Assembly: GCF_000019165.1 (NCBI RefSeq)
Contig: NC_010337.2
Location: forward strand, 2,862,001 to 2,926,000
From: Heliomicrobium modesticaldum Ice1
GTDB taxonomy: Bacteria > Bacillota > Desulfitobacteriia > Heliobacteriales > Heliobacteriaceae
Direction of reading: 5' to 3'
DNA: 64,000 nucleotides
The position numbers were made by a program, and so were the translations under genes. Shown here piece after piece: positions 38,040 through 63,618 of the stretch. The notes below the pieces were generated by a model that saw nothing but the letters and a program-made list of their open reading frames with translations, did no database searches and was not told the DNA's origin. The first letter of the stretch is position 1; every line of letters begins with the position of its first letter.

Positions 38040-38049
38040 CATAATTGAC

Positions 38050-38082
38050 TTGCTATTAATCCCCTTCAGAGTGATATATGTA
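38050..38082 (+). promoter_or_regulatory. Bipartite upstream element, copy 2
   Basis: TTGCTATT, 11 variable bases, GAGTGATATATGTA: the same parts and spacing as at 35128-35160. It is located 45 bp before the amidoligase ATG at 38128 and just right of the IS end. TTGACT overlaps its left edge. Confidence 0.55.
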
Positions 38083-38127
38083 CATGCCGGAAGGCACACA
38101 CAACCACTTTGAAGGAGGATAAAGCAC

Positions 38128-38475
38128 ATGCTTTACAAGCAAATTCGGGATTGAGATTGAATTCACGGGCATCACAAGGAGCGAGGCGGCAAGGGTCGCA
38201 GCTGAGTACCTCGGCGGTATGGTCAGCAGCGCGGGCGATTATTACGACACCAAGAAAGTCACGGCGCCGGACGGGAGGGTCTGGAAGTTCATGAGCGACG
38301 CTTCCATCGACTGCCGCAGGAAGGACGGCAGGCAAAAGGTTCCGGCAGGCAGGGACTACAGCGTGGAACTGGTCAGCCCGATACTGACCTACCGCGAGGA
38401 CATCGCCACATTGCAGGAACTGGTCAGGCGGCTTCGCCGGGCAGGAGCCTTTGCCAACAACTCCTGCGGCATCCA
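38128..38475 (+). pseudogene. Amidoligase gene, 5' fragment (frameshifted and interrupted)
   Basis: The ATG at 38128 with GAAGGAGG upstream opens MLYKQIRD and then hits TGA. One frame over, the sequence continues KFGIEIEFTGITRSEAARVA, later KFMSDASIDC and YSVELVSPILTYRED, typical of the phage amidoligase family (predicted COOH-NH2 ligases of the glutamine synthetase fold). A 1- or 2-base indel in the A-rich start (GCAAATTC) is the likely cause. The frame then runs to NNSCGIH, where the RIT element is inserted. The 3' part is at 41970-42569. Confidence 0.8.
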
Positions 38476-38502
38476 TTATGACAAGAAGAACATTATGCTG
38501 AG
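38471..38502 (+). repeat. RIT element left inverted repeat
   Basis: This 32-bp end starts ATCCATTATGACAAGAAG. It matches the reverse complement of 41916-41947 at 29 of 32 positions. Confidence 0.8.
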
Positions 38503-38562
38503 TCAATGGCGGCAAGCCGCATAGCATGCGGCTTAACCGTCAAATGACTTTGCATAACATTT

Positions 38563-48131: not shown

Positions 48132-48150
48132 TCGAAAGGTGGCGGTTGTA

Positions 48151-48471
48151 ATGGGCGTGATTGATACCCTGCTCCCCAAGGTCAAGGCAAACCTGATTCT
48201 GGAACACAGCGCGGACGACGAACTCTTGCGGGGGATCATCCGCGCCGCTGTTTCCTACGCCGAAAGCTACCAGCACATCGCCGAAGGCTGGTACTCCGAA
48301 AACGCCATGCCGCCCACCACCGAGCAGGCCGTGATTATGCTGTCGAGCCATTTTTACGAAAGCAGGGATGGCTCGACGGCAGGTTTCTTTGCGGACAACG
48401 TGCAGGCAAGCCAACAGGTGTGGGACACGGTTAACCTGCTTCTACGGCTTGACCGGGACTGGAGGCCATGA
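48151..48471 (+). CDS. Head-tail connector (HK97 gp6-like)
   Basis: A protein of 106 residues, all helical: DTLLPKVKANLILEHSADDE, then LLRGIIRAAVSYAESYQHIA and QAVIMLSSHFYESRDGST. This is the gp6/YqbG-like adaptor that forms a ring on the portal. The ATG at 48151 with AAAGGTGG 8 bp upstream is preferred to a GTG at 48139. It overlaps the next gene by 4 bp. Confidence 0.85.
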   Translation: MGVIDTLLPKVKANLILEHSADDELLRGIIRAAVSYAESYQHIAEGWYSENAMPPTTEQAVIMLSSHFYESRDGSTAGFFADNVQASQQVWDTVNLLLRLDRDWRP

Positions 48472-48806
48472 ATATGGGCTTCGGAAAAATGAACAGCTTC
48501 ATCGACATCATTACAACCGTCCCGGTCAAAGATCCGGAAGGTTTTGTCGGCGGGGGCGATACCGTCCTCGCCAGTATCCGGGCCTACAAGGAGGACAAAC
48601 ACGGGAATGAGCGCTGGGCAAACATGGCGGCGTTTTCCGAAGCCTCGTCTCTGTTCCGCTTCCGTAAGCCGCCGGGCCTTGATATCACAACGGACAATGT
48701 CATTGCCTGCGCAGACGGCAGATACAACATCCTGAGTGTTGAGGATGTGCGCGGGCGCGGGATGTACATCGAGGTTCTGGCAAAGAAGGTGGATGCAGGT
48801 GGCTAA
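48468..48806 (+). CDS. Head closure protein
   Basis: A protein of 112 residues: NSFIDIITTVPVKDPEGFVG, then TVLASIRAYKEDKHGNERWA and ADGRYNILSVEDVRGRGMYI then EVLAKK. It matches the small beta-barrel head closure family (SPP1 gp16-like) by pattern and position after the connector. Confidence 0.85.
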   Translation: MNMGFGKMNSFIDIITTVPVKDPEGFVGGGDTVLASIRAYKEDKHGNERWANMAAFSEASSLFRFRKPPGLDITTDNVIACADGRYNILSVEDVRGRGMYIEVLAKKVDAGG

Positions 48807-49230
48807 AGTCGATATAAAAATGCCGGATGATTTTCTCATTAAAGTATCCAAACTGGCGGACCAGACCGACGTAATTATCCCGAAGGTTCTGGATGCAGGC
48901 GGCGAGGTTGTGCTGGAGAAGGTAAAAAGCAACCTTCGCTCGGTCATCGGCAGGGATACGAAATACCCATCCGAGTCCACGGGCGAACTGCTTTCCTCCC
49001 TCGGCGTCACCCCGGCAAAGCAGGACAGGGACGGAAACTTTAATGTCAAGGTCGGCTTTGCCGAACCGAGGAGCGATGGCGGCAGCAACGCCAAGATCGC
49101 CAACATCATCGAATACGGAAAACACGGCCAGCCCGCGAAACCTTTCCTCAAACCCGCGAAATCCGCGTCAAAGAAAGCCTGCATCGAGGCTATGGCCGCC
49201 AAGCTGGATGAGGAGATAAAGAACCTATGA
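48793..49230 (+). CDS. HK97 gp10-like tail-completion protein
   Basis: A protein of 145 residues: MPDDFLIKVSKLADQTDVII, GGEVVLEKVKSNLRSVIGRD and YPSESTGELLSSLGVTP, with an IANIIEYGKHGQPAKPFLKP block typical of the family. GAAGGTGG precedes the ATG at 48793; a GTG at 48799 is an alternative. It overlaps the head closure gene by 14 bp and the next gene by 4 bp. Confidence 0.85.
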   Translation: MQVAKVDIKMPDDFLIKVSKLADQTDVIIPKVLDAGGEVVLEKVKSNLRSVIGRDTKYPSESTGELLSSLGVTPAKQDRDGNFNVKVGFAEPRSDGGSNAKIANIIEYGKHGQPAKPFLKPAKSASKKACIEAMAAKLDEEIKNL

Positions 49231-49571
49231 GCGTTTTATCTGAACTGAACACTATGCTGGATGCACTGGATATTCCTGTGGAGACCGGTGTTTTCAAGGG
49301 CAAAGCGCCGGATGAATATGTGGTCATTACACCCCTGACCGACACCTTCGGGATACACGCGGACAACCGCCCGCGATTCGAAGTGCAGGAAGCACGGCTG
49401 TCGCTGTTTTCCAAAAGCAACTACCAGCAGCGCAAAAAGCAAATTGTGGGGGCACTGCTGGATAACGGCTTCACGGTGACCGACCGGAGGTATATCGGCC
49501 ATGAGGACGACACCGGCTACCACCACTACGCCATTGATGTGGCGAAAGAATACGAATTACGGGAGGATTGA
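49227..49571 (+). CDS. Tail-completion/terminator protein
   Basis: A protein of 114 residues: ALDIPVETGVFKGKAPDEYV, VITPLTDTFGIHADNRPRFE and LSLFSKSNYQQRKKQIVGAL. It is the small alpha/beta protein in the tail-terminator position of HK97-type phages (DUF3168-like by location). It stops tail tube growth and joins tail to head. It overlaps its upstream neighbour by 4 bp. Confidence 0.78.
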   Translation: MSVLSELNTMLDALDIPVETGVFKGKAPDEYVVITPLTDTFGIHADNRPRFEVQEARLSLFSKSNYQQRKKQIVGALLDNGFTVTDRRYIGHEDDTGYHHYAIDVAKEYELRED

Positions 49572-49573
49572 TT

Positions 49574-50164
49574 ATGGCAACGATAGGACTTGACCGGCTC
49601 TACTACGCGCCGATCACGGAGGTGCCCGTCACGGGCGAGGAAACCTACGGACCGCCCGTGCTGCTTGCAAAGGCGATATCGGCGGAGTTATCCGTCGAAC
49701 TCGCCGAAGCAACGCTTTACGCCGATGACGGGGCGGCCGAAATCATCAAAGAATTTAAAAACGGAAAGCTGACCCTGGGGGTGGACGACATCGGGCGAGC
49801 CGCCGCAGAAACACTCACGGGCGCGACCACGGACGACAACGGCGTACTCATCTCCGCCAGCGAGGACGGCGGCGCACCCGTCGCCATTGGGTTCAGGGCG
49901 AAGAAGGCCAACGGCAAATACCGTTACTTCTGGCTTTACCGCGTAAAGTTCGGGGTACCCTCCACGAACCTGGCGACGAAGGGCGACTCCATCACCTTCT
50001 CCACACCGACCATCGAGGGTACGGTGTCGCGCAGGAACAAGCCCGACGGCAACGGGAAGCATCCATGGAAAGCCGAAGTCAACGAGGACGACTCGGGCGT
50101 CCTGCCCGCGACCATCACAGGCTGGTATACGGCGGTCTACGAGCCGACGTTCGCGGCCGGATAA
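49574..50164 (+). CDS. Major tail protein
   Basis: A protein of 196 residues: MATIGLDRLYYAPITEVPVT, then AELSVELAEATLYADDGAAE and FKNGKLTLGVDDIGRAAAET, followed by PVAIGFRAKKANGKYRYFWL with YRVKFG. This is the phi13-type major tail tube family. The ATG at 49574 has GGGAGGATTGATT upstream; an in-frame TTG two codons earlier is less likely. Confidence 0.9.
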   Translation: MATIGLDRLYYAPITEVPVTGEETYGPPVLLAKAISAELSVELAEATLYADDGAAEIIKEFKNGKLTLGVDDIGRAAAETLTGATTDDNGVLISASEDGGAPVAIGFRAKKANGKYRYFWLYRVKFGVPSTNLATKGDSITFSTPTIEGTVSRRNKPDGNGKHPWKAEVNEDDSGVLPATITGWYTAVYEPTFAAG

Positions 50165-50178
50165 AGGGGGGCTGACAA

Positions 50179-50562
50179 ATGGCTGACGAGAGAAGCGCGG
50201 TTATTAATATCGGCGGCACAGACTTTGAACTTGTGCTGACCACCCGCGCAACCAAGGAAATCGCCAGACGCTACGGCGGGCTGGAAAACCTCGGCGAGAA
50301 GCTGATGAAGTCGGAAAACTTCGAGATGGCGCTGGATGAGATTGTATGGTTGATTACAATGCTGGCGAACCAGTCAATTTTGATTTATAACCTTAAGCAC
50401 AAAGACGCTCCGAAAGATGTGCTGACCGAGGACGAGGTGGAGCTTCTGACCTCGCCGCTTGATCTGGCGGCGTACAAGGCCGCTATCACCGAGGCGATGT
50501 TTAAGGGTACCAGACGCAATGTTGAAAGCGAGGGCAGCCCAAAAAACACGGGAGCCGAGTAA
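50179..50562 (+). CDS. Tail assembly chaperone, short form (gpG-like)
   Basis: A protein of 127 residues: SAVINIGGTDFELVLTTRAT, then EIARRYGGLENLGEKL and EIVWLITMLANQSILIYNLK. It lies between the tail tube and tape measure genes, the place of the lambda gpG-type chaperone. A slippery run near its end (50538-50547) allows a longer product. AAAGGGGGGCTGACAA precedes the ATG. Confidence 0.85.
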   Translation: MADERSAVINIGGTDFELVLTTRATKEIARRYGGLENLGEKLMKSENFEMALDEIVWLITMLANQSILIYNLKHKDAPKDVLTEDEVELLTSPLDLAAYKAAITEAMFKGTRRNVESEGSPKNTGAE

Positions 50563-50750
50563 ACGACGACGAGTTGTTTACCCGGCTTTTATATTACGGG
50601 ACGGTTCACCTGAATCGCTCCGAGGAGGAAACATGGCTCACCCCCATCGGTCTGCTGATGGACTTATGGGAGTGCCATAAGCAATTCCTGGGGCTGGCAA
50701 AGCCAAAACGGGAGGTATTTATTGAAGATGTGATACCAGACGGGATTTGA
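50179..50750 (+). CDS. Tail assembly chaperone, -1 frameshift product (gpGT-like)
   Basis: A -1 shift at C CCA AAA AAC extends the gpG-like frame past its stop to 50750 and gives about 190 residues. The added part reads VNDDELFTRLLYYGTVHLNR, then EEETWLTPIGLLMDLWECHK and QFLGLAKPKREVFIEDVIPD. It has no start codon or ribosome binding site of its own. The length, composition and position match the T domain that recruits tail tube subunits to the tape measure protein. Confidence 0.75.
50538..50547 (+). other. Programmed -1 frameshift slippery site
   Basis: CCCAAAAAAC contains two overlapping X-XXY-YYZ heptamers in the zero frame (C CCA AAA and A AAA AAC). It is 13 bp before the zero-frame stop at 50560-50562. 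Confidence 0.75.
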
Positions 50751-50796
50751 TTGGGTATCCGCACATGGGCACCGGGTTCATGAACGGATACCCAAT
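50750..50796 (+). other. Long stem-loop before the tape measure gene
   Basis: Arms ATTGGGTATCCG (50750-50761) and CGGATACCCAAT (50785-50796) are perfectly complementary over 12 bp, with a 23-nt loop. No U-run follows, so it is not a standard terminator. It lies in the 85-bp gap after the chaperone stop. Confidence 0.6.
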
Positions 50797-50835
50797 CCCT
50801 AATATACCGGAAGGCACGCGGAAGGAGGTGGCGGC

Positions 50836-53394
50836 ATGGCGGACAATTTCGGTTTGAAAATAGGGGTCGAGGGCGAAAAGGAGTTTAAGAACGCCCTCCG
50901 GGACATCAACCAGTCCTTCAAGGTGCTGGGCAGTGAGATGAACCTCGTGGCTTCCCAGTTCGACAAAAACGACAAGAGCATTCAGGCTGTCACAGCCCGA
51001 AACGAGGTTCTAAATAAGGAGATCGACGCGCAGAGGAAAAAAATCTCCACCCTGCAAGCCGCGCTGAAAAACGCCGCCGAATCCTTCGGCGAGAACGACA
51101 GGCGCACCCAAGGCTGGCAGATCCAGCTTAACAACGCCAAAGCCGAGCTAAACGGCATGGAGCGTGAACTGGAGCAGAACAACAAAGCCCTCGGCAAAGC
51201 CGGAGACGGGTTCAACGACGTGGAAAAGCGGGCCGGCCGGTTCGGTGACGAACTGAAGGCCGCCGGCAAGGACGCGGACGAGGCGGGTTCCAAGTTTGAA
51301 AGGCTTGGCGGCATCCTCAAGGGCGTGGGTGCCGCGATGGGCGGCGCTTTTGTAGCCGTCGGAACGGCGGCGGTCGGCGCGGCAAAGGCTCTCGGCGACA
51401 TGACCGTCGGGGCTTCCCAATATGCGGACGATATCCTCACCATGTCCACGGTTACAGGCATGAGCACAGAAAGCCTGCAGGCATACAAATATGCAGCTGA
51501 ACTGGTGGACGTGTCGCTGGATACCCTTACGGGGAGCATGGCAAAGAACGTCAAGTCCATGTCCGCAGCCCGCGACGGCACCGGCACGGTTGCGGACGCC
51601 TACAAGATGTTGGGCGTTTCCGTGACGGACGCAAACGGACAGCTCCGGGATTCCCAAACGGTTTATTGGGAAGCCATCGACGCCCTGGGCAAGGTATCCA
51701 ATGAAACCGAACGCGACGCTTTGGCCATGCAGCTGTTCGGAAAATCCGCCCGGGATTTAAACCCGCTGATAGCCCAAGGTTCGGCCGGGATCGCAGAACT
51801 GACCGAGGAAGCCAAGCGGATGGGCGCGGTCATGAGCGAGGATTCATTGAACGCCCTCGGCGCCTTCGATGATTCCATGCAGCGGCTCAAGTCAGGCGGG
51901 GAGGCGGCGAAGAACGCCCTCGGGATGGTTCTTTTGCCGCAGCTTCAAGTGCTGGCCGACGACGGCGTAAGCCTGCTGGGCGAATTCACGCGGGGCTTGA
52001 ATGAAGCGAACGGCGACTGGAATAAAATCAGCGAGGTCATCGGAAATACTGTGGGGGGTATTGTCGATTCCGTCATGAAAACCCTGCCGGACATTATTCG
52101 GCTTGGTATGGATATTGTCATGTCCATCGGCGGGGCGGTTATGGACAATCTTCCGATGCTGGTAGACGCCGCGTCCCAGATTATCGTGACTTTGCTGCAG
52201 GGGCTGATCGGCGCCCTGCCCGGATTGACCGAGGGCGCGCTTCAGCTTGTACTGGCGCTGGTGAACGGGATAATCGAAAATCTTCCCGCGCTTGTGGAAG
52301 CCGCCGTGCAAATGGTCGCCACGCTGGTCGGCGGTATCGGCGAAGCACTTCCCCAGCTTATACCCGCCATCGTGCAAGCCGTGGTGCTAATCTGCCAGAC
52401 ATTGGTTGAGAACCTCCCCCTCCTGCTGGATGCGGCCTTACAGATAATATTGGGTTTGGCGCAGGGGCTTTTAAACGCCCTGCCGGAACTCATCGCGGCA
52501 CTGCCCGCCGTCATTACGGCTATAGTGGACTTTGTCATCGGCGCTATCCCCCTGATAATCGATGCGGGCATACAGCTTTTAGTGTCGCTGGTGGGGGCGC
52601 TGCCGGAAATCATCACGGCAATCGTGGCGGCTATCCCGCAAATCATTGACGGAATCATCACGGCGGTGCTGGGTTCCATCCCGCAGTTGATTGAAGCGGG
52701 CGTCAAGCTTCTGGTGGCGCTGATACAAAACCTGCCGCAGATTATCATCGCCATCGTTCAGGCCATACCGCAGATCATCACGTCCATCGTGGACGCCCTC
52801 ATCGGGAATATCGACAAAATCATCCTCGCGGGCGTCCGGCTTTTCGTCGCCCTGATTCAAAACCTGCCGGCCATCATAGTGGAAATCGTCAGGGCGGTGC
52901 CGCAGATTATCTCCGCCCTGGTCAAGGGTTTCACAGGCTCTATCGGCCAAATCGCACAGGTGGGCGGCAATCTCATCAGGGGCTTATGGCAGGGCATTTC
53001 CGACGCCGGGGCGTGGCTGTGGGATAAGATCTCCGGGTTCTTCGGCGGCGTGGTGGACAGAATCAAGGACTTCTTCGGTATCCATTCGCCCTCCACCCTG
53101 TTCGCCAGGCTTGGCGAGAACATGGGCGAAGGCGTCGGCGTTGGCTTTGAGCGTGCAATGGCCCAGGTGAGCGACGATATGCAAAACGCCATCCCCACCC
53201 GCTTCGATCTACCGGGCGTCAATATAAACGCCGGCGTTTCCGGTACTACCGGAAGTATCCCGCCCAGCGGCCCCCTGATAACTATCCAGCAGATGGTTGT
53301 GCGCAGCGAGGATGATATCCGGAGGATTTCCCAGGAACTTTACAACCTGATGCAGACAGGTTCAAGGGCGCAAGGCCGGTTCAGCCCGGCATAG
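50836..53394 (+). CDS. Tape measure protein
   Basis: A protein of 852 residues. The N-terminal 165 are coiled coil (NQSFKVLGSEMNLVASQFDK, then NEVLNKEIDAQRKKISTLQA). A TP901-type core follows (VGAAKALGDMTVGASQYADD, ILTMSTVTGMSTESLQAYKY). From about 420 to 710 there is a very hydrophobic tract of repeated modules of the kind LPQIIIAIVQAIPQIITSIV and AGVKLLVALIQNLPQ. The end (KDFFGIHSPSTLFARLGENM) is the usual C-terminal motif. It sets tail length and may insert into the host membrane during DNA entry. GGAGGTGGCGGC precedes the ATG. Confidence 0.95.
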   Translation: MADNFGLKIGVEGEKEFKNALRDINQSFKVLGSEMNLVASQFDKNDKSIQAVTARNEVLNKEIDAQRKKISTLQAALKNAAESFGENDRRTQGWQIQLNNAKAELNGMERELEQNNKALGKAGDGFNDVEKRAGRFGDELKAAGKDADEAGSKFERLGGILKGVGAAMGGAFVAVGTAAVGAAKALGDMTVGASQYADDILTMSTVTGMSTESLQAYKYAAELVDVSLDTLTGSMAKNVKSMSAARDGTGTVADAYKMLGVSVTDANGQLRDSQTVYWEAIDALGKVSNETERDALAMQLFGKSARDLNPLIAQGSAGIAELTEEAKRMGAVMSEDSLNALGAFDDSMQRLKSGGEAAKNALGMVLLPQLQVLADDGVSLLGEFTRGLNEANGDWNKISEVIGNTVGGIVDSVMKTLPDIIRLGMDIVMSIGGAVMDNLPMLVDAASQIIVTLLQGLIGALPGLTEGALQLVLALVNGIIENLPALVEAAVQMVATLVGGIGEALPQLIPAIVQAVVLICQTLVENLPLLLDAALQIILGLAQGLLNALPELIAALPAVITAIVDFVIGAIPLIIDAGIQLLVSLVGALPEIITAIVAAIPQIIDGIITAVLGSIPQLIEAGVKLLVALIQNLPQIIIAIVQAIPQIITSIVDALIGNIDKIILAGVRLFVALIQNLPAIIVEIVRAVPQIISALVKGFTGSIGQIAQVGGNLIRGLWQGISDAGAWLWDKISGFFGGVVDRIKDFFGIHSPSTLFARLGENMGEGVGVGFERAMAQVSDDMQNAIPTRFDLPGVNINAGVSGTTGSIPPSGPLITIQQMVVRSEDDIRRISQELYNLMQTGSRAQGRFSPA

Positions 53395-53407
53395 GAGGTG
53401 TTACGGC

Positions 53408-54181
53408 ATGGGATTTACATTCGGCGGCATAACGTCGCAGAGCATGAACATCAAGGTGCGGCTGACGGGCTGGCAGGCATCGCCTTCCCTGCGGAACTCT
53501 TTTGTCACCATTCCCGGCAAACCCGGTGTGGCGGACTTCGGCAGCGACATCACGGAAAAAATCATCACGGTGCGGTGCAATATCCCACCGCAATACAGCT
53601 TAGCCTCGCTGGTGTCCATCCTCGACAGCATGGCCGAATGGCTTAATCCGGAGCGCGGTTTACGGCAACTGGTCCTGGATGACATCCCGGACAGGTACTT
53701 CACCGCCCGGCTGACCGATGGGGTGGACTGCGACAGGCTGGTTCTTTCGGCGGGTGCGTTCGATCTGAAATTCGTCTGCCCCGACCCGCATGCCTATGCG
53801 CTGACGGATGAGGTTTTCACCATCACATCCGAGGGCGTAAACACGGTGAGCAGGACGAAGGGCAACACGGATTCCGAGCCTGTCTACCTTTTAAAGGGAA
53901 CCATCCCCTCCGGCCCCTCGACTTATATTTCGCTGCGGACGAACGACGAGGAACTTCGGGTAATCGGCGCGCTGGCCGGCGGCGAAACACTGGTCATAGA
54001 CACCGGCAGGGTCACTGCGAAAGTAGTGGACGAAACGGGCGAAACATTGAGGAACGGGCTCCCACTATTGCAGGAGCTTAACTTTCCCGTTCTGCACAAA
54101 GGTACGAACACCGTGACAATTACGGCGGCCGGCGCGACATTTACGGAACTTAAGGTTCAGGCAATGAGCCGCTGGAGGTGA
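53408..54181 (+). CDS. Distal tail protein (Dit-like)
   Basis: A protein of 257 residues: FTFGGITSQSMNIKVRLTGW, RNSFVTIPGKPGVADFGSDI, then FDLKFVCPDPHAYALTDEVF. These are siphovirus tail component blocks. A C-terminal galectin-like part ends FPVLHKGTNTVTITAAGATF. It forms the hub between tail tube and tip. GGAGGTGTTACGGC precedes the ATG. Confidence 0.9.
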   Translation: MGFTFGGITSQSMNIKVRLTGWQASPSLRNSFVTIPGKPGVADFGSDITEKIITVRCNIPPQYSLASLVSILDSMAEWLNPERGLRQLVLDDIPDRYFTARLTDGVDCDRLVLSAGAFDLKFVCPDPHAYALTDEVFTITSEGVNTVSRTKGNTDSEPVYLLKGTIPSGPSTYISLRTNDEELRVIGALAGGETLVIDTGRVTAKVVDETGETLRNGLPLLQELNFPVLHKGTNTVTITAAGATFTELKVQAMSRWR

Positions 54182-54185
54182 TAAA

Positions 54186-56705
54186 ATGGCTGTCAAATCA
54201 GTTTTAACAAATCAGACGGACTTCACGGGCGAGATCCCCGTGACTAAAAATACGTCTGCCCTGTGGCGGTTCAACGAACCGCAGCCGGACGGCAACATGC
54301 AGCTTGCCGATTCCAGCGGCAACGGCCGCCATCTTACCGTCTCCGGCTGGAGCGGCACCACGGCGAGCCTCATAAGCGGGCGCTTCGGCCGATATTTCCG
54401 CATGAACATCAACAACCCGGCCACGGAAAAGACGCACCTTGTCGCGGCAAACGACGGTACGTTCTTTTCGGATTTGGGCGATAAAATAGCCGTCGGCGGA
54501 TGGATTAACCCGACCACCTATTCGGTCGGGCAGACCTATGTCCCGCTATTCAACACCCGGCAGGGTCCGGGGCAGCCGCTGTTCTACTTGTCGCTTTACC
54601 AGGGGCGTCCGAGGATGATGCTGTATAACTCTGCGGGAACCCTAATCCTCGACCAGTCTGAAACACCTTCCTTCACGATGGTCAACGGCGGCTGGTATTT
54701 CATTGCGGCGGTAATCGAGGTGACAGCCAAAACCTCGCAGATAATCCTCTGCAACCGTGCGGACGGTACGGTCTGGGTCGCCCCTAAACGTGCTTTCACA
54801 GGGACGCCGAACCCCTCCTGCATTGCGGATATCGTGCTGGGAATGCACGCCAACCAATATTACTTCGCGGGCGGTTTTGACGACTGGTTCCTGGAGGTTG
54901 GCTCGGAATTGACAATCGAAGATTTGCGAAGGTATTTCCAACAGGCGATGCTCGGGAACGGCGGCGACACAAATTCGGCGGTGGACGCCATTACCGAACC
55001 CGGTGCGGTCACCCTGAAAAAAGGGGCGGACAACAACTATCCCGCAAGCGGCGTACTGACCACCATCGCGGCGCAGTGCTCGCTCGCGGGCAGCGGCCGC
55101 GTTTCGGTGGCCAGCGAATATGCCGCCGGGATAACGGCTGTTTCCCTGGTTGAAACCTCCACCTCCGACGACCTTGCCGACTGGTCGGCGTGGCAGGCGG
55201 TGGGTACGAACGGCGAACTCGCTTCGCCCAACAGGGAATATATCTGTTACCGCATCACCCTTTCCACCAACGATGCGGCCAGGACGCCAAAACTCCTCGA
55301 CATCACGCTCCATGATATCCCCAAAGCGCCCTATGAGAGGCTCGGCTTTTCCCGGCCCGTCGTACTGGACGCAAACGGCGCATGGGAAGCCGTACTGGAG
55401 AACGCTTATGATATCATCGCCACGGGGGAGGTAAACGGAGCGGACACCCTGGATTTCAAATTCCCTTACAATGACCCCAAACGGGCGTCACTGGACAACG
55501 AAAAGCAGGTGCAGATTGCCGGGGACATCTACCGGATCCGCACCCTTACCGACGAGAAAGGCTCGGACGGCAGCGGCATCCTGACCACCGTATATGCGGA
55601 AGCTGCGTTCTACGACCTGACCTTCTCGGCCGAGAAGCAGCCCGTGGAATTCAACGCCGACCTGCCGTCCGCCCCGATGCGCTATGCATTGGAGGGAACC
55701 AGCTGGTCGCTGGGCACGGTGGACGTAACTACCCTGAGGACTTGGCAGTGCAATGAGAAAAACGCCCTGGCGATCTTGCGGCGGGTCCAGCAGCTGCATG
55801 GCGGTGACCTCGTCTTTGACAGCCGCAACCGTCTAGTGAGCCTTTTGGCTTTCAGCGGCAGGGACAACGGCGCGCTGTTCGCATACCGGAAGAACCTTAC
55901 CGGCATCAAGCGTGTGGTGGATACACGCTCGCTGGTAACAAGGCTCTATGCCTTCGGCAAGGACGGTATGACCTTCTCCTCCATCAACGGCGGCAAGGAG
56001 TATGTGGAGGATTATACCTATTCAAATGAAGTCAGGGTTTCCACGCTGGACTGCCCCAACTTCACCAACCCGTACCAGATGCTGGAGTTCGCCAACATGC
56101 GCCTTGCCGAATACGCAAGGCCCCGGGTGTCCTATGTGCTGTCGGCGATGGATTTGTCCGTGCTGACGGGGTACGAACACGAGCAGTGGTCATTGGGCGA
56201 CATTGTGACCGTAGACGACCGCGACCTGAACCTGTCAATAAAGACCCGTATTGTACGCAGGCAGTATAACCTGCAGGAACCGTGGAAGACAGTGCTGGAG
56301 CTGTCCAGCAAGCTTCGGGAGCTGGGCGATTCCCCCACTGACGCGTTTGCCGACCAGCTTGGGCAGTCCAACCTTATCGGGCAGGAAATCAAGGATATGG
56401 TCCCGTTCAACCACCTCCGCAATTCCCGCGCGGACGACGGCTTCGCCTACTGGCAGAACTCCGGCTTCGAGGTGGATACCGAAAACGGTTTGACGGGGAC
56501 GGCTTCCTTTAAGGCAACCGGTTCCTTGGGCGCCACCAAGAGCATGGCGCAGACGGTTTACCCGGCTTCCCGCCGCAGCTATACCATCTCCGCGCAGATC
56601 GGCTCGGATAACCTGCAAAAGGGCGCCAACGGCCAGGTGGGCATTGAGCTTGTTTTTGAGTATGAGGACGGGACCACGGAAACACGGTTTATAGATTTGT
56701 TATGA
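54186..56705 (+). CDS. Tail tip/spike protein with N-terminal LamG domain
   Basis: A protein of 839 residues. Residues 20-250 are a LamG/concanavalin-like domain (TSALWRFNEPQPDGNMQLAD, then DKIAVGGWINPTTYSVGQTY and FAGGFDDWFLEVGSELTIED). The middle (about 400-720) is the prophage tail-hub (Tal-like) domain: GEVNGADTLDFKFPYNDPKR, RIRTLTDEKGSDGSGILTTV and ALEGTSWSLGTVDVTTLRTW. The C-terminal 100 residues look like a carbohydrate-binding jelly roll (AYWQNSGFEVDTENGLTGTA). It should recognise the cell surface. A LamG module at the N-terminus rather than the tip end is unusual. Confidence 0.85.
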   Translation: MAVKSVLTNQTDFTGEIPVTKNTSALWRFNEPQPDGNMQLADSSGNGRHLTVSGWSGTTASLISGRFGRYFRMNINNPATEKTHLVAANDGTFFSDLGDKIAVGGWINPTTYSVGQTYVPLFNTRQGPGQPLFYLSLYQGRPRMMLYNSAGTLILDQSETPSFTMVNGGWYFIAAVIEVTAKTSQIILCNRADGTVWVAPKRAFTGTPNPSCIADIVLGMHANQYYFAGGFDDWFLEVGSELTIEDLRRYFQQAMLGNGGDTNSAVDAITEPGAVTLKKGADNNYPASGVLTTIAAQCSLAGSGRVSVASEYAAGITAVSLVETSTSDDLADWSAWQAVGTNGELASPNREYICYRITLSTNDAARTPKLLDITLHDIPKAPYERLGFSRPVVLDANGAWEAVLENAYDIIATGEVNGADTLDFKFPYNDPKRASLDNEKQVQIAGDIYRIRTLTDEKGSDGSGILTTVYAEAAFYDLTFSAEKQPVEFNADLPSAPMRYALEGTSWSLGTVDVTTLRTWQCNEKNALAILRRVQQLHGGDLVFDSRNRLVSLLAFSGRDNGALFAYRKNLTGIKRVVDTRSLVTRLYAFGKDGMTFSSINGGKEYVEDYTYSNEVRVSTLDCPNFTNPYQMLEFANMRLAEYARPRVSYVLSAMDLSVLTGYEHEQWSLGDIVTVDDRDLNLSIKTRIVRRQYNLQEPWKTVLELSSKLRELGDSPTDAFADQLGQSNLIGQEIKDMVPFNHLRNSRADDGFAYWQNSGFEVDTENGLTGTASFKATGSLGATKSMAQTVYPASRRSYTISAQIGSDNLQKGANGQVGIELVFEYEDGTTETRFIDLL

Positions 56706-56717
56706 GGAGGTGCGGCT

Positions 56718-56912
56718 ATGCCTGCATTTCAACAAATAGCAAGAGACGCGACGCCCAAGGGCTATGGGACGCTGCGCTCCATCACCATAAGGCTTGTGGT
56801 GTCCGACTGCACCGGGGCGGTATATTTTACCGACCTCATGCTGCAGGCAGGCTCCGTCGCCACCGGCTGGGTCGGCCACGTCAGCGAGATTCAGTGGACG
56901 CTGGATGGGTAG
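56718..56912 (+). CDS. Small tail-associated protein with DCTGAVYFTDLMLQ module
   Basis: A protein of 64 residues: TPKGYGTLRSITIRLVVSDC, then TGAVYFTDLMLQAGSVATGW. The second half is nearly repeated in the next gene (DCTGAVYYTDLMLQEGG), so the two share one structural module. GAGGAGGTGCGGCT precedes the ATG. Its function is unknown; position suggests a tail tip component. Confidence 0.7.
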   Translation: MPAFQQIARDATPKGYGTLRSITIRLVVSDCTGAVYFTDLMLQAGSVATGWVGHVSEIQWTLDG

Positions 56913-56921
56913 GTGAAGGCA

Positions 56922-57491
56922 ATGCAAATCAATAATTTCATCCGTTTTGCGGAAACCGTAAAGGTCAAGGAGGACAAGCGTGTGGTCAGCATCACGGTCC
57001 GTCCGCTTATCGCCGATTGCACGGGCGCCGTCTACTACACCGACCTTATGCTGCAGGAGGGTGGCAAGCTGACGGGCTACACGCCGCATACCACGGCCAT
57101 GCTCAAAAGCTCGCCCAACCCGCCCCGCTTCCATAACGGTATTGTGCGGACAAGCGAAACGGTGATCATTTTCAACCTCGGCGAAACTTCGTCGGGGCTG
57201 GACTGCTACATCTACCCCATCCAGAGCATGGCGGCAGGCAGCATCTTGCTCTCCCAGGGTATGGGTTCGCACCAAGTCAGCTTTGACGCGGCGATGAGTG
57301 CGGGCGATGAGCTTGCGCTGAAAGCTTCCACCCGCGAGTGCCTGCGAAACGGCAGCCCGACACCGAAGCGCGGTTTTTTCCAATACACCGCCGCCCATGA
57401 CAGCAAGCACCAGGTAAAGCTGGAGGACAGAAAGTCCGCAAGGGTCCGCTTCGAATACAGAGAAATGCTGAAAGGGGATTCCCGCCCATGA
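56922..57491 (+). CDS. Tail-associated structural protein
   Basis: A protein of 189 residues. It opens QINNFIRFAETVKVKEDKRV, has the shared module RPLIADCTGAVYYTDLMLQE and continues MAAGSILLSQGMGSHQVSFD and AGDELALKASTRECLRNGSP. It has no enzyme motif and is likely a tail accessory protein. The ATG at 56922 has AGGTGAAGG directly upstream; a GTG at 56913 is an alternative. It overlaps the GH18 gene by 4 bp. Confidence 0.7.
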   Translation: MQINNFIRFAETVKVKEDKRVVSITVRPLIADCTGAVYYTDLMLQEGGKLTGYTPHTTAMLKSSPNPPRFHNGIVRTSETVIIFNLGETSSGLDCYIYPIQSMAAGSILLSQGMGSHQVSFDAAMSAGDELALKASTRECLRNGSPTPKRGFFQYTAAHDSKHQVKLEDRKSARVRFEYREMLKGDSRP

Positions 57492-59956
57492 TGGACTATT
57501 TAAAGGGGAAACGCTGCATGGTCTGGTCGTTCATGGGCAACACCCGGATGTACCAGGCGCTGAACGACTATGGTGACCGTCTGGATACGGTGGGCATCTT
57601 CACCTTCGAGGTCGACGCAACGGGAACTATTTCAGAAACCGGCACCGATGTCTCAAGCCTTACAGCTTACCGCACCAAGTGGCCGCACATCAAGTGGATG
57701 CTGACTGTCATGAACCACGGCACGGCTTCAATCTTTACCGCCCTGCGGAACAATACGGACGGCGCGAAGGATACCTTCCTCTCGGAAATCGTGCGCATTA
57801 TGCAGAAATACCCGTGGTGCGCCGGCGTGGACATCGACCTGGAGCGCGGCGGCGGGTATGAGAACCGCACTGCGGCAAACGCCCTCTTCCGTGATATCTT
57901 CCGGACGGTCAAATCATATAACCCCGCCAAGCTAGTCAACATCTGCCTGCCGGGCATGACGGGCGTGGAAGGCTCCGTCGGCGGCGAGAACTGGTGTGTA
58001 TACTCCGACCTCAACGCATACTGTGACACGGCGGCCATCATGAGCTACGGCATGGCGTGGGCCGGCTCCGCGCCGGGACCCGTGTCTCCCCGAAGCTGGC
58101 TGGAGGGCATCTACGACTACGCCGTGCAGTCCATGTCCCCAGATAAGGTGTTCATGGGCTTGCCCGCCTATGGCTGGAACTGGCAGATTTACGACACGCC
58201 CGAAAACCTCGGCAAGGCTTACCGGGGAACATCCAATACCTATTATGCCGCAAAGAACTGGATGACGGGGGTTTACAACTTTACGGACGACCAGCCGCCC
58301 CAGCCGCGTATCCCCATCATTGCATACTGGGACGATTACGACAAAGTGCCGTGGGCCCTTCCCCATGTTTATGACTATATGGAAGGCTGGGATGCCGTAT
58401 CAAGGACTGACCCCATAACCGCCGAGGTGTATAACCGGCGGCATTACCTGACCTGTTACGGCAAGGCGCAAAAAGCGGAATTCGGCGCCATCCTCATAGA
58501 CCGCGACGGTGTCCCCGATTCCTACGAGGGTAACATCATCGTAGGCGAAGCGGCGGTCAGTTTGGGTGATGGCGGGACGGCTGATTACAGCTTTACCATC
58601 GGCCAAGCGGGAACCTATGATGTGGCTGTGCGGTTATGTTATCCGTTTTGGGATAAGAATGGAATCACCATTTCACTTGACGAAGGCCCCGGCGTGACCT
58701 TTACGGAGGATCGCCTGTGGTGGCCATACTGGAGGAAAACCTTCTGGGCGGCGCTTGCCACGGAAGTGAGCCTGTCGGCCGGGGAGCACACCATTACCAT
58801 TGAGGGCGGCATTCCGGGGACGCAGTTTTATGGTTTCAGGGTATGCGGCTCCTTTTCGGAGGAGCCCTCGGCCGGGGAGGCGACATTCGCCCTTTCGCCG
58901 CGCAGCTTCAAGGATGTGGACGGCAACATGGTCGTGCCGGACAGGGGTTTCAAGCTGACAACCGAGGTGCTGCGCCGAAAGCCGGATTCCGCGCTGGTAT
59001 GGTATGAAGATTTCCGTGACCCGATCACCCTCCAGGAAAGCTATTGGATTACCCTTTCCGGGAGCTGGAGCGTCTGGCACGACACTAATGGTAACGGCAA
59101 CCGGCCATATTCACAGCTTGAGGGCAGCGGGCAGCTTGCCTGGAAGTATGAAGGGTTCAACGATGTGCATGTCAGGGCGAGGGTTGCTTTCCCGGAAAAC
59201 GGCAACGGCCGCGCGGGGGTATTCCTCGGGGATGTGTTCTGCTGCATCAACATCGACAACCAGCGGGTGGAACTCTATCAAGGCACAACCCTGCTCGAGA
59301 ACTGGCAAGGCAGTTACTCAAGGACACCGGACGCCGATATCCGCACCAACCCGAATATGTACCTCATTGAAATGAGGAAACGCGGGGGTACGGTTCGTGT
59401 CTACTCCGGCAACAGCAACACACTCCGGTTTACGGCAGCCATATCGGCGGTGGGCGGGTATTGCGGCATCCGGTCGGACGGGCAAATCAAGTGCGAACTG
59501 CTCCGGTTGGGCGATGCATGGACATATGAGCCATATGAAGCCTTTGATGTGTACATGCCGGACGGGACATCGATGAATTACGGGAGGATTCCGAGGGCGG
59601 GTGTGACCTGGGACTCGGAGTTTGGGGTGTTCACCCTCCAAAACGATGTGGAGGAATCCTCCAGCCGGAGCGAAGACATATCGATGGACTATGACTTCTA
59701 CCACAGCGGGCTTTTGCAAATACCCTGCAACGCCGACTACATTGCAAAGATAGTGCCGAGGGACATCAACGTCTGGATATCCCGGCTGTTCCTCGGCGAC
59801 GCGGACGGTTTCTCGATCCTCTACTACCAGGATGTGGACTCCCTCGTCTACTGGTCTAACGAGGCGGCTTACCGCTGGGGGCTTCGCGGCATCGCCATCT
59901 GGTCGCTGGGCCAGGAGGATTTGCGGCTGTGGGAGGCACTCCCAAAACAGATATAA
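57488..59956 (+). CDS. Tail lysin: GH18 glycosidase split by carbohydrate-binding modules
   Basis: A protein of 822 residues. Residues 8-320 are a GH18 (YaaH-like) barrel with the catalytic motif GVDIDLER (Glu119) and strands TAAIMSYGMAW and VFMGLPAYGWNW. Residues 345-456 look like a galactose-binding (CBM6/35-type) module (GEAAVSLGDGGTADYSFTIG, then SLSAGEHTITIEGGIPGTQF). Residues 503-685 look like a concanavalin-type module (LVWYEDFRDPITLQESYWIT). The last GH18 strand, RGIAIWSLGQEDLRLWEAL, comes only at 800-818, so the barrel appears to be interrupted by the inserted modules. It would cut N-acetylglucosaminyl bonds of peptidoglycan or surface glycan during infection. It has no signal peptide, consistent with delivery on the virion. 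Confidence 0.88.
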   Translation: MMDYLKGKRCMVWSFMGNTRMYQALNDYGDRLDTVGIFTFEVDATGTISETGTDVSSLTAYRTKWPHIKWMLTVMNHGTASIFTALRNNTDGAKDTFLSEIVRIMQKYPWCAGVDIDLERGGGYENRTAANALFRDIFRTVKSYNPAKLVNICLPGMTGVEGSVGGENWCVYSDLNAYCDTAAIMSYGMAWAGSAPGPVSPRSWLEGIYDYAVQSMSPDKVFMGLPAYGWNWQIYDTPENLGKAYRGTSNTYYAAKNWMTGVYNFTDDQPPQPRIPIIAYWDDYDKVPWALPHVYDYMEGWDAVSRTDPITAEVYNRRHYLTCYGKAQKAEFGAILIDRDGVPDSYEGNIIVGEAAVSLGDGGTADYSFTIGQAGTYDVAVRLCYPFWDKNGITISLDEGPGVTFTEDRLWWPYWRKTFWAALATEVSLSAGEHTITIEGGIPGTQFYGFRVCGSFSEEPSAGEATFALSPRSFKDVDGNMVVPDRGFKLTTEVLRRKPDSALVWYEDFRDPITLQESYWITLSGSWSVWHDTNGNGNRPYSQLEGSGQLAWKYEGFNDVHVRARVAFPENGNGRAGVFLGDVFCCINIDNQRVELYQGTTLLENWQGSYSRTPDADIRTNPNMYLIEMRKRGGTVRVYSGNSNTLRFTAAISAVGGYCGIRSDGQIKCELLRLGDAWTYEPYEAFDVYMPDGTSMNYGRIPRAGVTWDSEFGVFTLQNDVEESSSRSEDISMDYDFYHSGLLQIPCNADYIAKIVPRDINVWISRLFLGDADGFSILYYQDVDSLVYWSNEAAYRWGLRGIAIWSLGQEDLRLWEALPKQI

Positions 59957-60034
59957 ACCGCTATTGGGTAAGGATGCTTGCCGGAAACGGCAGGCTTTTT
60001 TTTATACACACATTCAGAAACGGAGGTTTTATGT

Positions 60035-60466
60035 ATGAAAGAAATCTGGTCCTGGATTCAGGCGGCGTTTGCCGGGTTAGGCGGATGGCTGGGTTGGGTG
60101 CTGGGCGGCGCGGACGGTTTTATCTACGCCCTGATTGCTTTTGTGGCCGTGGATTATCTGACCGGTGTGCTTTGCGCTATTGCAGATAAGAAGCTGTCCA
60201 GCGAGATCGGCGCGAAGGGTATCTTCAAAAAGGTGCTCATCTTCGTGATGGTAGGCGTCGCGCATATCCTCGACACGCAGGTATTGGGCGGCAACAGCAG
60301 CGCCCTCCGCACAGCGGTGATCTTCTTCTATCTGAGCAACGAGGGCGTATCCATCCTCGAAAACTCAGCGCATATCGGGCTGCCCATCCCCGAAAAACTC
60401 AAGGAGGTTTTGCAGCAGCTTCATGGGCGCGACGGGGAGCCGCCAAAGACAGGTGACGGAACATGA
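60035..60466 (+). CDS. Holin, phage holin_4 (Cph1-like) family
   Basis: A protein of 143 residues: AFAGLGGWLGWVLGGADGFI, then YALIAFVAVDYLTGVLCAIA and VLIFVMVGVAHILDTQVLGG, ending RTAVIFFYLSNEGVSILENS. Three or so membrane segments with the DYLTG motif are the signature. It makes membrane lesions at lysis. The ATG at 60035 follows GGAGGTTTTATGT. It overlaps the next gene by 4 bp. Confidence 0.93.
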   Translation: MKEIWSWIQAAFAGLGGWLGWVLGGADGFIYALIAFVAVDYLTGVLCAIADKKLSSEIGAKGIFKKVLIFVMVGVAHILDTQVLGGNSSALRTAVIFFYLSNEGVSILENSAHIGLPIPEKLKEVLQQLHGRDGEPPKTGDGT

Positions 60467-60798
60467 TCGACCTGACGAAAGCGGCGACGGTGTTTATCGG
60501 GCGGCGCGGAGAGCACCACTACCGCAGCCTTGAATTTGACGTTTCCGACCTGCTGGGGGACGAATACCCCAGCGCCGCACTGCACGCCATATACAAGAGG
60601 CCTGATGGCATCGCCTATCCCTTGGTTACAAGCTACGCGTACGGTGTTCTGACATGGTCGCCCAGCGCGACGGATACAGAAAACGTCGGCGTCGGACGGC
60701 TGGAGATCAGGGTCGTGCATAGCGAGGTGGTCGGGAAAAGTGCGGGTGCTCACCATCGTCGAGGAAGCCATTGCGGACGGTATAGCCGAACTGTTTGA
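60463..60798 (+). pseudogene. BppU-like structural protein, frameshifted near the C-terminus
   Basis: The reading frame is normal for 90 residues (TVFIGRRGEHHYRSLEFDVS, then YPSAALHAIYKRPDGIAYPL and ENVGVGRLEIRVVHSEVVGK). Then it turns into low-quality sequence ending GRYSRTV. The expected continuation VRVLTIVEEAIADG is present in the next frame from 60740. A 1- or 2-base indel near 60736-60740 (GGGAAAAGTGCGG) explains this. The shifted frame then degrades. The family appears in baseplate or tail-fibre position next to lysis genes; this copy is probably inactive or C-terminally altered. Confidence 0.65.
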
Positions 60799-60936
60799 GA
60801 TACGTCATGTCTGGCAATGTCACATGTGCGGGCGGCGTCAACAGCATCAGAGGGCCTTTATACACAATACTGCCCGTCGGCAGCGTGCCTATAGACGGGC
60901 AAAGCGGTCTGCTTTTACCTGTGGAGGTGATTTACG

Positions 60937-61635
60937 ATGAATCTGCGAAAACAAATACTCACAAACAACTCCTGCTTCAAGGTGGGAAAAACCATCACGC
61001 CGAAGGGCATCATGGTTCACTCTACCGGGGCGAACAACCCGTGGCTGAAACGCTACGTGGCGCCCGACGACGGATTTCTGGGAAAGAACCAGTACGGTAA
61101 CCACTGGAATCAGGATAAGCCCGACGGCCGTCAGGTCTGCGTCCATGCCTTTATCGGCAAGCTGGCGGACGGATCAATCGCAACATACCAGACCCTTCCG
61201 TGGAACCATCGCGGCTGGCACTGCGGTGGTTCAGGCAACGATACTCACATCGGCTTCGAGATCTGCGAGGATGGCTTGACTGATGCGTCTTATTTCGGCA
61301 AGGTATACTCGGAAGCCGTGGAGCTTTGCGTATATCTCTGCAAGCTCTATAGCTTGACTGAGAAAGACATCATTTGCCACTCCGAAGGCTATAAACAAGG
61401 TATCGCATCGAACCACTCTGATGTGATGCATTGGTTCCCGAAGTTTGGGAAATCTATGGATACTTTCCGTGCCGATGTTAAAAGACTTCTTACCGCCCCG
61501 GCGCCTACGCCCGGCGAGCCAAATAGGCTCTACCGCGTTCAGGTTGGGGCTTACAGCGTCAAGGCCAACGCTGAGGCGATGCTCGCCAAGGTTAAGGCGG
61601 CTGGATTTACGGACGCTTTTATCAAAACTGAATAA
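60937..61635 (+). CDS. Endolysin: N-acetylmuramoyl-L-alanine amidase with SPOR domain
   Basis: A protein of 232 residues. The Amidase_2 domain covers 1-180: TPKGIMVHSTGANNPWLKRY with a zinc histidine, WNHRGWHCGGSGNDTHIGFE and HSDVMHWFPKFGKSMDTFRA with the second zinc histidine and lysine. The C-terminal SPOR-type repeat is LYRVQVGAYSVKANAEAMLA. It cleaves the peptide stem from MurNAc at lysis. GGAGGTGATTTACG precedes the ATG. It is followed by a strong terminator that ends the late operon. Confidence 0.93.
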   Translation: MNLRKQILTNNSCFKVGKTITPKGIMVHSTGANNPWLKRYVAPDDGFLGKNQYGNHWNQDKPDGRQVCVHAFIGKLADGSIATYQTLPWNHRGWHCGGSGNDTHIGFEICEDGLTDASYFGKVYSEAVELCVYLCKLYSLTEKDIICHSEGYKQGIASNHSDVMHWFPKFGKSMDTFRADVKRLLTAPAPTPGEPNRLYRVQVGAYSVKANAEAMLAKVKAAGFTDAFIKTE

Positions 61636-61650
61636 ATTAATCTATCGATG

Positions 61651-61688
61651 CCGCCGCGTGATTGATTTCACTCGGCGGTTATTTTTTT
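61651..61688 (+). terminator. Terminator of the late operon
   Basis: The stem CCGCCG/CGGCGG (61651-61656 with 61673-61678) extends inward by GTGA/TCAC and is followed by TTATTTTTTT. It lies 16 bp after the endolysin stop. Confidence 0.85.
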
Positions 61689-61708
61689 GCTCCGGAAATC
61701 CATGTTTT

Positions 61709-61765
61709 CAGTACTCAATCCGCCCTCTACTGTCCTGTGGATGGTGAGAGGGTTAATTGCCCTCC
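61709..61765 (+). promoter_or_regulatory. Conserved-loop leader element (copy B)
   Basis: CAGTACTCAA (61709-61718) is followed by CCCTCT/AGAGGG (61723-61728 with 61747-61752) enclosing TGTCCTGTGGA, then GCCCTCC (61759-61765) just before GGGAGG. It is the same order of parts as copy A2 at 20463-20520, and 18 bp before the SHOCT-like gene ATG. Confidence 0.6.
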
Positions 61766-61783
61766 GATGGGAGGAAACGACAT

Positions 61784-62005
61784 ATGACAAACGTTACAGA
61801 TGAAAAGCCGGGCATAAATTATGAGAAAAAGCCTGTTTCTCAGGAGCAGCTTCAGCATGAGTATGATTATTTTCTGGCTCAGCAAATATTAGAATCTATC
61901 TTGAAAAACGGCTTGATTACTATGGATGAATTCAACAAGATAACCACATTAAACCGCCAGTCTTTCTCTCCGGCGCTGGCACGGATTATGCCAGGAAATC
62001 GTTGA
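61784..62005 (+). CDS. SHOCT-like small protein of the recombinase module
   Basis: A protein of 73 residues: SQEQLQHEYDYFLAQQILES, then ILKNGLITMDEFNKITTLNR. The LxxLLxxGxIxxxEF pattern is that of SHOCT-type short helical domains. Proteins like this precede large serine recombinases in many clostridial elements and may be recombination directionality or accessory factors, although this is inference from position. GGGAGGAAACGACAT precedes the ATG. Confidence 0.7.
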   Translation: MTNVTDEKPGINYEKKPVSQEQLQHEYDYFLAQQILESILKNGLITMDEFNKITTLNRQSFSPALARIMPGNR

Positions 62006-62055
62006 TATTACTTGGGTTCAGAGGTAATATGTCATGCTGACAAGGAGGTGAGAAT

Positions 62056-63618
62056 TTGAAAAAGGTAACGAAAATCGCCCAAAATACAGCTGATTTTACC
62101 GAACGGCCCAAGCTACGTGTTGCGGCTTACTGCCGTGTGTCCACCGACAGCGATGAGCAGCTGGTCAGCCTTGAAACCCAAATTAGGCACTACGAATCCT
62201 ATATCAATGCAAATCCTGATTGGGAGTTTGCCGGTCTTTATTATGACGAGGGCATCACAGGTACGAAAAAGGAAAAACGGCATGAGCTGCTTCGGATGAT
62301 ATCCGACTGTGAAAATAAAAAAATCGACTTCATCGTAACCAAGTCTATCAGCCGGTTTGCACGAAATACCACCGACTGTCTTGAACTGGTCAGGAAGCTG
62401 ATTGACCTTGGCATCTTCATTTATTTTGAGAAAGAAAACATCAACACCGGGTCAATGGAAAGCGAACTCATGCTGTCAATCCTGAGTGGACTGGCTGAAA
62501 GCGAGTCGGTCTCCATCTCGGAAAACAATAAGTGGTCGGTAAAGCGCAGGTTTCAAAGCGGCACTTTCAAAATCTCCTATCCGCCCTATGGCTACGATGC
62601 CGTTGACGGGAAGATGGTCGTGAATGAATCCCAGGCTGAAATCGTCCGGTTCATCTTTGCTGAAATCTTGTCAGGCAAAGGCACCCATAAAATTGCGGAT
62701 GACCTGAACCGCCGAAAGGTACCGACCAAGAAAGGCGGGCGCTGGACGGCAACAACCATTCGCGGGATGGTCAGCAACGAAAAATATACCGGCGACGCAA
62801 TTTTTCAAAAGACCTATACCGATGAGCACTTCAACCGACACAACAACTACGGCGAGAAAGACCAGTATCTGATCAAAAACCATCATGAACCGATTATCAG
62901 CCATGAAGATTTTGAAGCCGCACAGATGATCATCGAACAGCGCGGCAAGGAAAAAGGTGTAGTAAAGTATAACGAAAAATACCAGAGCCGTTATCCTTTT
63001 TCCGGTAAAATCATCTGCGGTCAGTGTGGCAGTAAATTCAAACGCCGAATTCACGGGAGCGGCAGAAAATACATCGCATGGTGCTGCTCCACTCACATTG
63101 CGGACATCAAGAAATGTCCTATGAAATATATCCCGGAGTCCGATTTTGAATACGCATTCGTCACCATGATGAACAAGCTCATCTTCGGACATGAAACCGT
63201 CCTAAAGCCACTGCTTGCGAGCCTGCGCGGCATGAATTCCGACGACAGTCTGACAAGCATTCGGGAGCTTGACAAGAAACTCGAAGAAAACACGGAACAG
63301 CGAAAGGTGCTGGTGGGGCTTCTCACCAAAGGATACCTTGAGCCTGCCGTTTACAATAAGGGCAACAATGAACTTCTGCAGGAGGCCGAAAGGTTACACC
63401 GTCAAAAGGAATCCTTAGTACGCTTCTTAAACAGTGACACCCAACACTTAAGCGAAGTCAGTGAGTTGCTGCACTATACCACAAAAACACCGATGCTGAC
63501 CTGCTTTGACAGAGACATTTTTAAACGCTTTGTGGAGCGGATTATTGTTTATTCCAGGACAGAAATAGGATTTGAGTTAAAATGCGGCATAACGCTGAAA
63601 GAAAGGCTGGTGAAATAG
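62056..63618 (+). CDS. Large serine recombinase (integrase)
   Basis: A protein of 520 residues. The N-terminal resolvase domain shows RVAAYCRVSTDSDEQLVSLE with the nucleophilic serine in CRVSTD, then DEGITGTKKEKRHELLRMIS and ITKSISRFARNTTDCLELVR-like arginines. The Recombinase domain follows (GYDAVDGKMVVNESQAEIVR, then TIRGMVSNEKYTGDAIFQKT). A zinc ribbon has SGKIICGQCGSKFKRR and WCCSTH...C, and a C-terminal coiled coil comes next. It catalyses attP x attB integration. The start is a TTG with AAGGAGGTGAGAAT upstream. Confidence 0.92.
   Translation: MKKVTKIAQNTADFTERPKLRVAAYCRVSTDSDEQLVSLETQIRHYESYINANPDWEFAGLYYDEGITGTKKEKRHELLRMISDCENKKIDFIVTKSISRFARNTTDCLELVRKLIDLGIFIYFEKENINTGSMESELMLSILSGLAESESVSISENNKWSVKRRFQSGTFKISYPPYGYDAVDGKMVVNESQAEIVRFIFAEILSGKGTHKIADDLNRRKVPTKKGGRWTATTIRGMVSNEKYTGDAIFQKTYTDEHFNRHNNYGEKDQYLIKNHHEPIISHEDFEAAQMIIEQRGKEKGVVKYNEKYQSRYPFSGKIICGQCGSKFKRRIHGSGRKYIAWCCSTHIADIKKCPMKYIPESDFEYAFVTMMNKLIFGHETVLKPLLASLRGMNSDDSLTSIRELDKKLEENTEQRKVLVGLLTKGYLEPAVYNKGNNELLQEAERLHRQKESLVRFLNSDTQHLSEVSELLHYTTKTPMLTCFDRDIFKRFVERIIVYSRTEIGFELKCGITLKERLVK

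Follow-up and report, generated by a model that had tools for sequence, protein, structure and literature searches.

The 822-aa protein encoded near the 3' end of the window (the whole stretch of DNA analysed, 64,000 nt of the Heliomicrobium modesticaldum Ice1 genome) is quite probably a prophage tail-tip enzyme that cuts a surface glycan, in which residues 1-233 and 776-822 make up a single GH18 barrel with further modules nested between them. Sequence comparison and structure prediction support a barrel that is split by an insert, with strands β1-β7 before it and α7-β8-α8 after it. The coordinates of the gene, its segments and its neighbors are compiled in Table 1.

Table 1 Features of the GH18 gene and the surrounding prophage genes (window positions)
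Feature	Position	Strand	Basis
Distal tail protein Dit	53408..54181	+	Profile matches
Tail tip protein (Tal / Prophage_tail)	54186..56705	+	Profile matches
Two small tail ORFs (56718-56912, 56913-57491), kept 5' of the GH18 gene in relatives	56718..57491	+	Gene order
Complete gene (822-aa GH18 tail-tip protein, nested modules)	57488..59956	+	ORF; PHROG 3432 match, residues 5-822
Residues 1-233, predicted barrel strands β1-β7 and helices α1-α6	57488..58186	+	Pfam GH18; AlphaFold strand order; fold matches 5jh8, SleL, YdhD
DIDLE, residues 115-119, catalytic DxDxE on β4, E119 expected acid	57830..57844	+	Conservation, 49 sequences
Residues 234-322, similar to the region of the chitinase insertion domain (CID)	58187..58453	+	Profile match to OfChtIV
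Residues 323-464, module 1, CBM35-like β sandwich	58454..58879	+	Pfam CBM_35 in relatives; missing in actinophage relatives
Residues 465-507, conserved β-rich linker	58880..59008	+	Near-constant length
Residues 508-683, module 2, CBM66-like (concanavalin-type) β sandwich	59009..59536	+	Fold match only
Residues 684-775, conserved β-rich segment back to the barrel, no family assigned	59537..59812	+	AlphaFold, alignment
Residues 776-822, predicted last CID-type strand, α7, β8 and α8	59813..59953	+	C-terminal profile matches; AlphaFold; host GH18 alignment
IAIWSLGQED, residues 802-811, β8 motif with W805	59891..59920	+	W805 in 49/49
Holin	59978..60466	+	Profile matches
Amidase endolysin with a short SPOR match, the prophage's actual lysin	60937..61635	+	Endolysin family matches

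Genomic context of the GH18 gene

The gene is one intact ORF of 822 codons whose ATG overlaps the stop codon of the upstream tail ORF. The tape measure, Dit and Tal genes and the two small tail ORFs are encoded upstream, and the holin, the amidase endolysin and a serine recombinase downstream. The profile of PHROG 3432 matches residues 5-822 over positions 2-803 of 812 (E 0), and this full-length match together with the tail-tip gene context places the protein in that family. No NCBIfam family was found for it. Judged by family and gene order, it is a siphovirus-type tail-tip component and would be located accordingly in the virion. It is not the phage lysin that the first-pass annotation had made of it, since its best family is a tail protein and the adjacent amidase gene (60937-61635) is the one that matches endolysin families.

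The genome also contains a second prophage at a distance of about 96 kb, which carries the same tail module with a GH18 protein that is 75% identical. The segment from capsid to recombinase at window positions 46932-63618 is syntenic with locus L202 (G000:C1:2815000-2834000), the encoded proteins being 57-81% identical. The host thus contains two related prophages. No full-length copy of the GH18 gene was detected in any of 60 genomes related to that of the host; the best matches had E values no better than 1e-17 and covered N-terminal parts only, as expected for ordinary cellular GH18 proteins. The gene is therefore considered phage-borne.

Several further features were noted in the window and at L202. 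The two small ORFs at 56718-57491 share a repeated motif (CTGAVYFTDLMLQ / CTGAVYYTDLMLQ), with a cross-match in the second prophage, and are possibly duplicated small tail modules. The SPOR match of the endolysin spans profile positions 2-34 of 76 only and the protein ends there, a possible truncation of the domain; alignment with the related endolysin of L202 is limited to residues 1-204. At 7336-15942, a minus-strand ADP-ribosylglycohydrolase-like ORF is found near a type III restriction helicase-like ORF and an N6/N4 methylase-like ORF, possibly a defence island. Directly upstream of the packaging genes, the region 36277-41794 contains ORFs for a DDE transposase and for two or more tyrosine integrases.

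The two barrel segments

The Pfam GH18 profile (PF00704) matches with 56.1 bits (cut-off 29.6). The match is confined to residues 38-290, corresponding to profile positions 28-279 of 317, and the end of the barrel is therefore missing from this region. AlphaFold was run with an alignment of 49 sequences (pLDDT 87.6, pTM 0.80). In the resulting model, strands at residues 9-15, 34-42, 69-75, 113-117, 149-155, 181-185 and 221-226 precede the insert, which is followed by a strand (776-780), a helix (783-796), a strand (801-805) and a helix (813-817). All eight barrel strands are thereby predicted in sequential order, distributed over two segments. In a fold search with this model, GH18 enzymes rank first (5jh8, SleL, YdhD). 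The distance from the Tyr-Gly of β7 to the Trp of β8 is 577 residues, compared to 76-84 residues in seven cellular GH18 proteins.

When the C-terminal piece was scanned alone, Pfam returned a single weak, sub-threshold match to DUF7538, and profile searches and hhalign were therefore used. A profile covering the C-terminal ~67 residues plus short natural extensions was built from 35 relatives and searched against 177,635 distinct PDB sequences. The top two matches are the GH18 enzymes 5jh8 (264-311, E 0.016) and 4q6t (295-338, E 0.021), both of which are aligned at their own last helix and strand. Against the host's own uninterrupted GH18 protein, the profile aligned α7-β8-α8 with 39% identity (P = 1e-7). 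A chance look-alike of the C-terminal motif was ruled out by these PDB matches and the host alignment. Within residues 234-322, no eighth strand or α/β unit was found; AlphaFold gives short strands and one short helix past β7. Likewise, a profile of residues 216-345 was aligned with the host's ordinary GH18 protein at β7 only. A barrel complete in the N-terminal part was discarded on these grounds.

According to the model, residues 776-822 would close the (β/α)8 barrel in space. An MI-APC covariation analysis (186 sequences, effective number 51) lists the pairs 225-803 and 10-802, which are expected for such a closure, among the top pairs. The enrichment for β1 and β7 reaches a p value of 0.05-0.07 at one weighting and is absent at another, and because of this dependence covariation was left out of the evidence for closure.

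The coordinates of the ORF in the first-pass annotation are exact. It had placed the DIDLE motif in the N-terminal part and the IAIWSLGQED motif at the far C-terminus, and they are found at residues 115-119 and 802-811. Its central proposal, that the binding modules are nested between strands of one barrel, agrees with an N-terminal part that ends after β7 and with α7-β8-α8 at the C-terminus. An N-terminal barrel complete by itself, which it had named as the outcome contrary to nesting, appeared neither in the AlphaFold model nor with the 216-345 profile. The single barrel that it had expected from residues 8-320 and 770-822 is predicted in this split order, but with the boundaries 1-233 and 776-822, since residues 234-322 resemble the CID region of OfChtIV and not a barrel strand. 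Similarly, the long insert is present, but instead of about 450 residues of binding modules it comprises about 540 residues (234-775), of which about 320 are module-like.

The insert between β7 and α7

The CID of GH18 enzymes is located between β7 and α7 (PMC2805709). The profile of residues 216-345 (segment 216-330) matches residues 239-339 of OfChtIV across β7 and the CID region (E 2.6e-4). As the insert follows β7 in a CID-like segment, the interruption appears to use an insertion slot that is established in GH18. For module 1, Pfam CBM_35 matches 24 of 49 relatives (best 4.4e-5), the 822-aa copy itself not being among those reported. The segment 471-507 between the modules has a length of 37-38 aa across 49 sequences. 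Residues 465-779 were modelled alone with a pLDDT of 93.6, and their best fold match is the CBM66 structure 4b1m (TM 0.73, E 9e-7), followed by galactocerebrosidase. The profile of the insert gave no match to PDB sequences, so the CBM66 likeness of module 2 is one of fold. By sequence in relatives (module 1) or by fold (module 2), both modules look like carbohydrate binders. Length hardly varies in the segments 465-507 and 684-775, which also have many invariant residues and are therefore regarded as a conserved part of the protein.

Conservation and distribution

The DxDxE motif of GH18 is present as D115-I-D117-L-E119 on β4, and W805 is aligned with the β8 Trp of solved and cellular GH18 proteins. 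None of the 49 sequences deviates at D117, E119, Y187 or W805, and 47 of them have D115. We take E119 to be the catalytic residue and W805 to form the floor of the -1 sugar site. In the MxYD motif on β6, the Asp following Tyr187 is replaced by Gly188 (window 58049-58051) in 34 of the 49 sequences, including the 822-aa protein. The adjacent loop 188-199 is highly conserved, yet its AlphaFold pLDDT is below 50. In all three sets of relatives (Bacillota, actinophage-type, TP-84 type), conservation is higher in the two barrel pieces than in the intervening modules, and the C-terminal piece equals the remaining barrel in this respect.

In public phages, 189 records match the protein, 181 of them over at least 80% of its length. 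These include phages of Microbacterium, Bacillus, Geobacillus, gut clostridia, Streptococcus and Erysipelothrix. Across 84,980 species genomes, 125 pattern matches encode relatives; among the matches listed (80 of 125), nearly all are from Bacillota and one record title names a Latescibacterota MAG. With the BSTP12 protein as query, a scan of viral contigs yielded no relatives. The gene order of the tail module is kept across phages. The spacing between the β7 Tyr-Gly and the β8 Trp is shortest in the actinophage-type set (440-457 residues), followed by the Bacillota set (569-580) and the TP-84 type (680-717). The actinophage-type relatives lack module 1, having 28-31 residues in its place compared to 146-148. 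The nested layout, which had been called unusual in the first-pass annotation, is by sequence the rule in this tail-protein family, with its 189 phage records and numerous prophages, mostly from Gram-positive bacteria, and thus a real and widespread variant of a known enzyme.

Proposed function and alternative explanations

The barrel would be a GH18 (β/α)8 fold related to the cellular YaaH/YdhD/SleL enzymes and assembled from both ends of the chain. After β7, the chain is predicted to leave the barrel and to pass through the CID-like segment, the CBM35-like module, the linker, the CBM66-like sandwich and the β-rich segment before it closes the barrel. Flanked by barrel pieces, the modules would be anchored close to the barrel on either side, unlike modules appended to a terminus. 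In the virion, they probably hold the surface glycan beside the barrel, which probably hydrolyses N-acetylhexosamine linkages of a GlcNAc-containing surface polymer. The outcome would be the passage of the phage through a capsule or another surface polymer, or a local opening of the peptidoglycan.

Given the analogy to TP84_26 and the conserved catalytic residues, the protein is most likely a tail-tip depolymerase; sugar binding and substrate are part of this analogy-based reading. Peptidoglycan must be taken seriously as the substrate instead, given that SleL and YdhD are the enzymes most similar to the barrel and that what the hosts have in common is mainly the Gram-positive wall. The same nested protein would then be an ectolysin that opens the wall for DNA entry, much like the SleL/YaaH enzymes to which its barrel is similar. 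This is a tentative but substantial possibility: among solved structures, the closest are those of YdhD, SleL and further GH18 proteins of spores or walls, and the hosts vary in capsule and share a wall of Gram-positive type. TP84_26, the sole characterised relative, degrades capsule instead (PMC10131341, PMC10815759), and two modules of glycan-binding type fit a branched surface polymer.

Catalytically dead GH18 lectins exist, and the Gly at position 188 of the MxYD motif in 34 of 49 sequences would also fit a protein that has lost catalysis and serves mainly as an adhesin, with barrel and modules as a receptor-binding platform. This is improbable in view of D117, E119 and Y187 (49/49) and D115 (47/49), and of the activity of TP84_26 (PMC10815759). 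Because the binding modules are located between β7 and β8, the nesting could also be imagined as a switch, in which gripping the polymer moves α7-β8 and Trp805 so that the enzyme is fully formed or active only once the host is bound; this is given very little credence. Still slighter is the probability of no nesting at all, i.e., a complete N-terminal barrel and an unrelated tail element that resembles β8. Such a reading could draw on the pairing of strand 8 with strands 1 and 7, which is deduced from strand order, and on the weighting-dependent covariation enrichment. Against it stand the C-terminal profile, which matches GH18 at β8 only, the absence of an eighth α/β unit from residues 234-322, the invariant W805, and a C-terminal piece as conserved as the other barrel parts.

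For a split-barrel depolymerase, constructs designed as an N-terminal enzyme and a C-terminal binder would disrupt the barrel and yield false negatives in depolymerase screens. The actinophage relatives without module 1 offer a natural comparison for the role of the nested module.

Comparison with known systems

TP84_26 of phage TP-84 occurs both in virions and in free form and is tetrameric in its behaviour; the recombinant protein strips Geobacillus of its capsules (PMC10131341, PMC10815759). It is a distant full-length relative of the 822-aa protein (tblastn 6-819 of the query, ~23% identity), and shares the gene order Dit-Tal-small ORF-tail protein-GH18-holin-endolysin, the overall predicted fold (TM 0.76) and GH18 motifs at both ends. 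By full-length homology and conserved gene order, the 822-aa protein is thus of the TP84_26 type. In contrast, TP84_26 has 991 aa with a longer insert (680-717 residues between the β7 and β8 landmarks in its clade) and belongs to a phage of a thermophile, and capsule degradation, known for TP84_26 (PMC10131341, PMC10815759), is predicted for the 822-aa protein by analogy. These papers give a GH18/YaaH match, and their accessible parts mention no nested layout (PMC10131341, PMC10815759). PHROG 3432 is described merely as 'minor tail protein', with no function or architecture given. Tail proteins annotated only in this way or as 'hypothetical' would thereby receive a defined architecture and an activity open to assay. 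Their family, whose phages infect clostridia, bacilli, streptococci and actinobacteria, also includes the TP-84 capsule depolymerase.

The cellular GH18 proteins of the YaaH/YdhD/SleL type (3cz8, 4s3j, 4s3k, 5jh8) match the barrel best in both sequence and fold and have the same β8 motif, but their barrel is uninterrupted, and the substrate of these nearest solved relatives is spore peptidoglycan, not capsule. The CID of GH18 subfamily A is likewise inserted between β7 and α7 (PMC2805709). It is a small domain, however, compared to about 540 residues with two sandwich modules here, suggesting that this slot can house several hundred residues of binding modules. CBMs nested within TIM-barrel hydrolases are found in the GH10 xylanases Xyn10C and Pm25, with two CBM4s between β3 and α3, and in SusG (GH13), with CBM58 in the B domain (PMC7848910). 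These are cellular enzymes with other GH and CBM families and another insertion point. Literature searches found no account of a nested layout in GH18 tail proteins, although one may still exist. While CBMs nested in TIM barrels and GH18 insertions at β7/α7 (CID) are already known, such nesting in GH18 tail proteins, as it emerges from sequence comparison and modelling, appears to be new.
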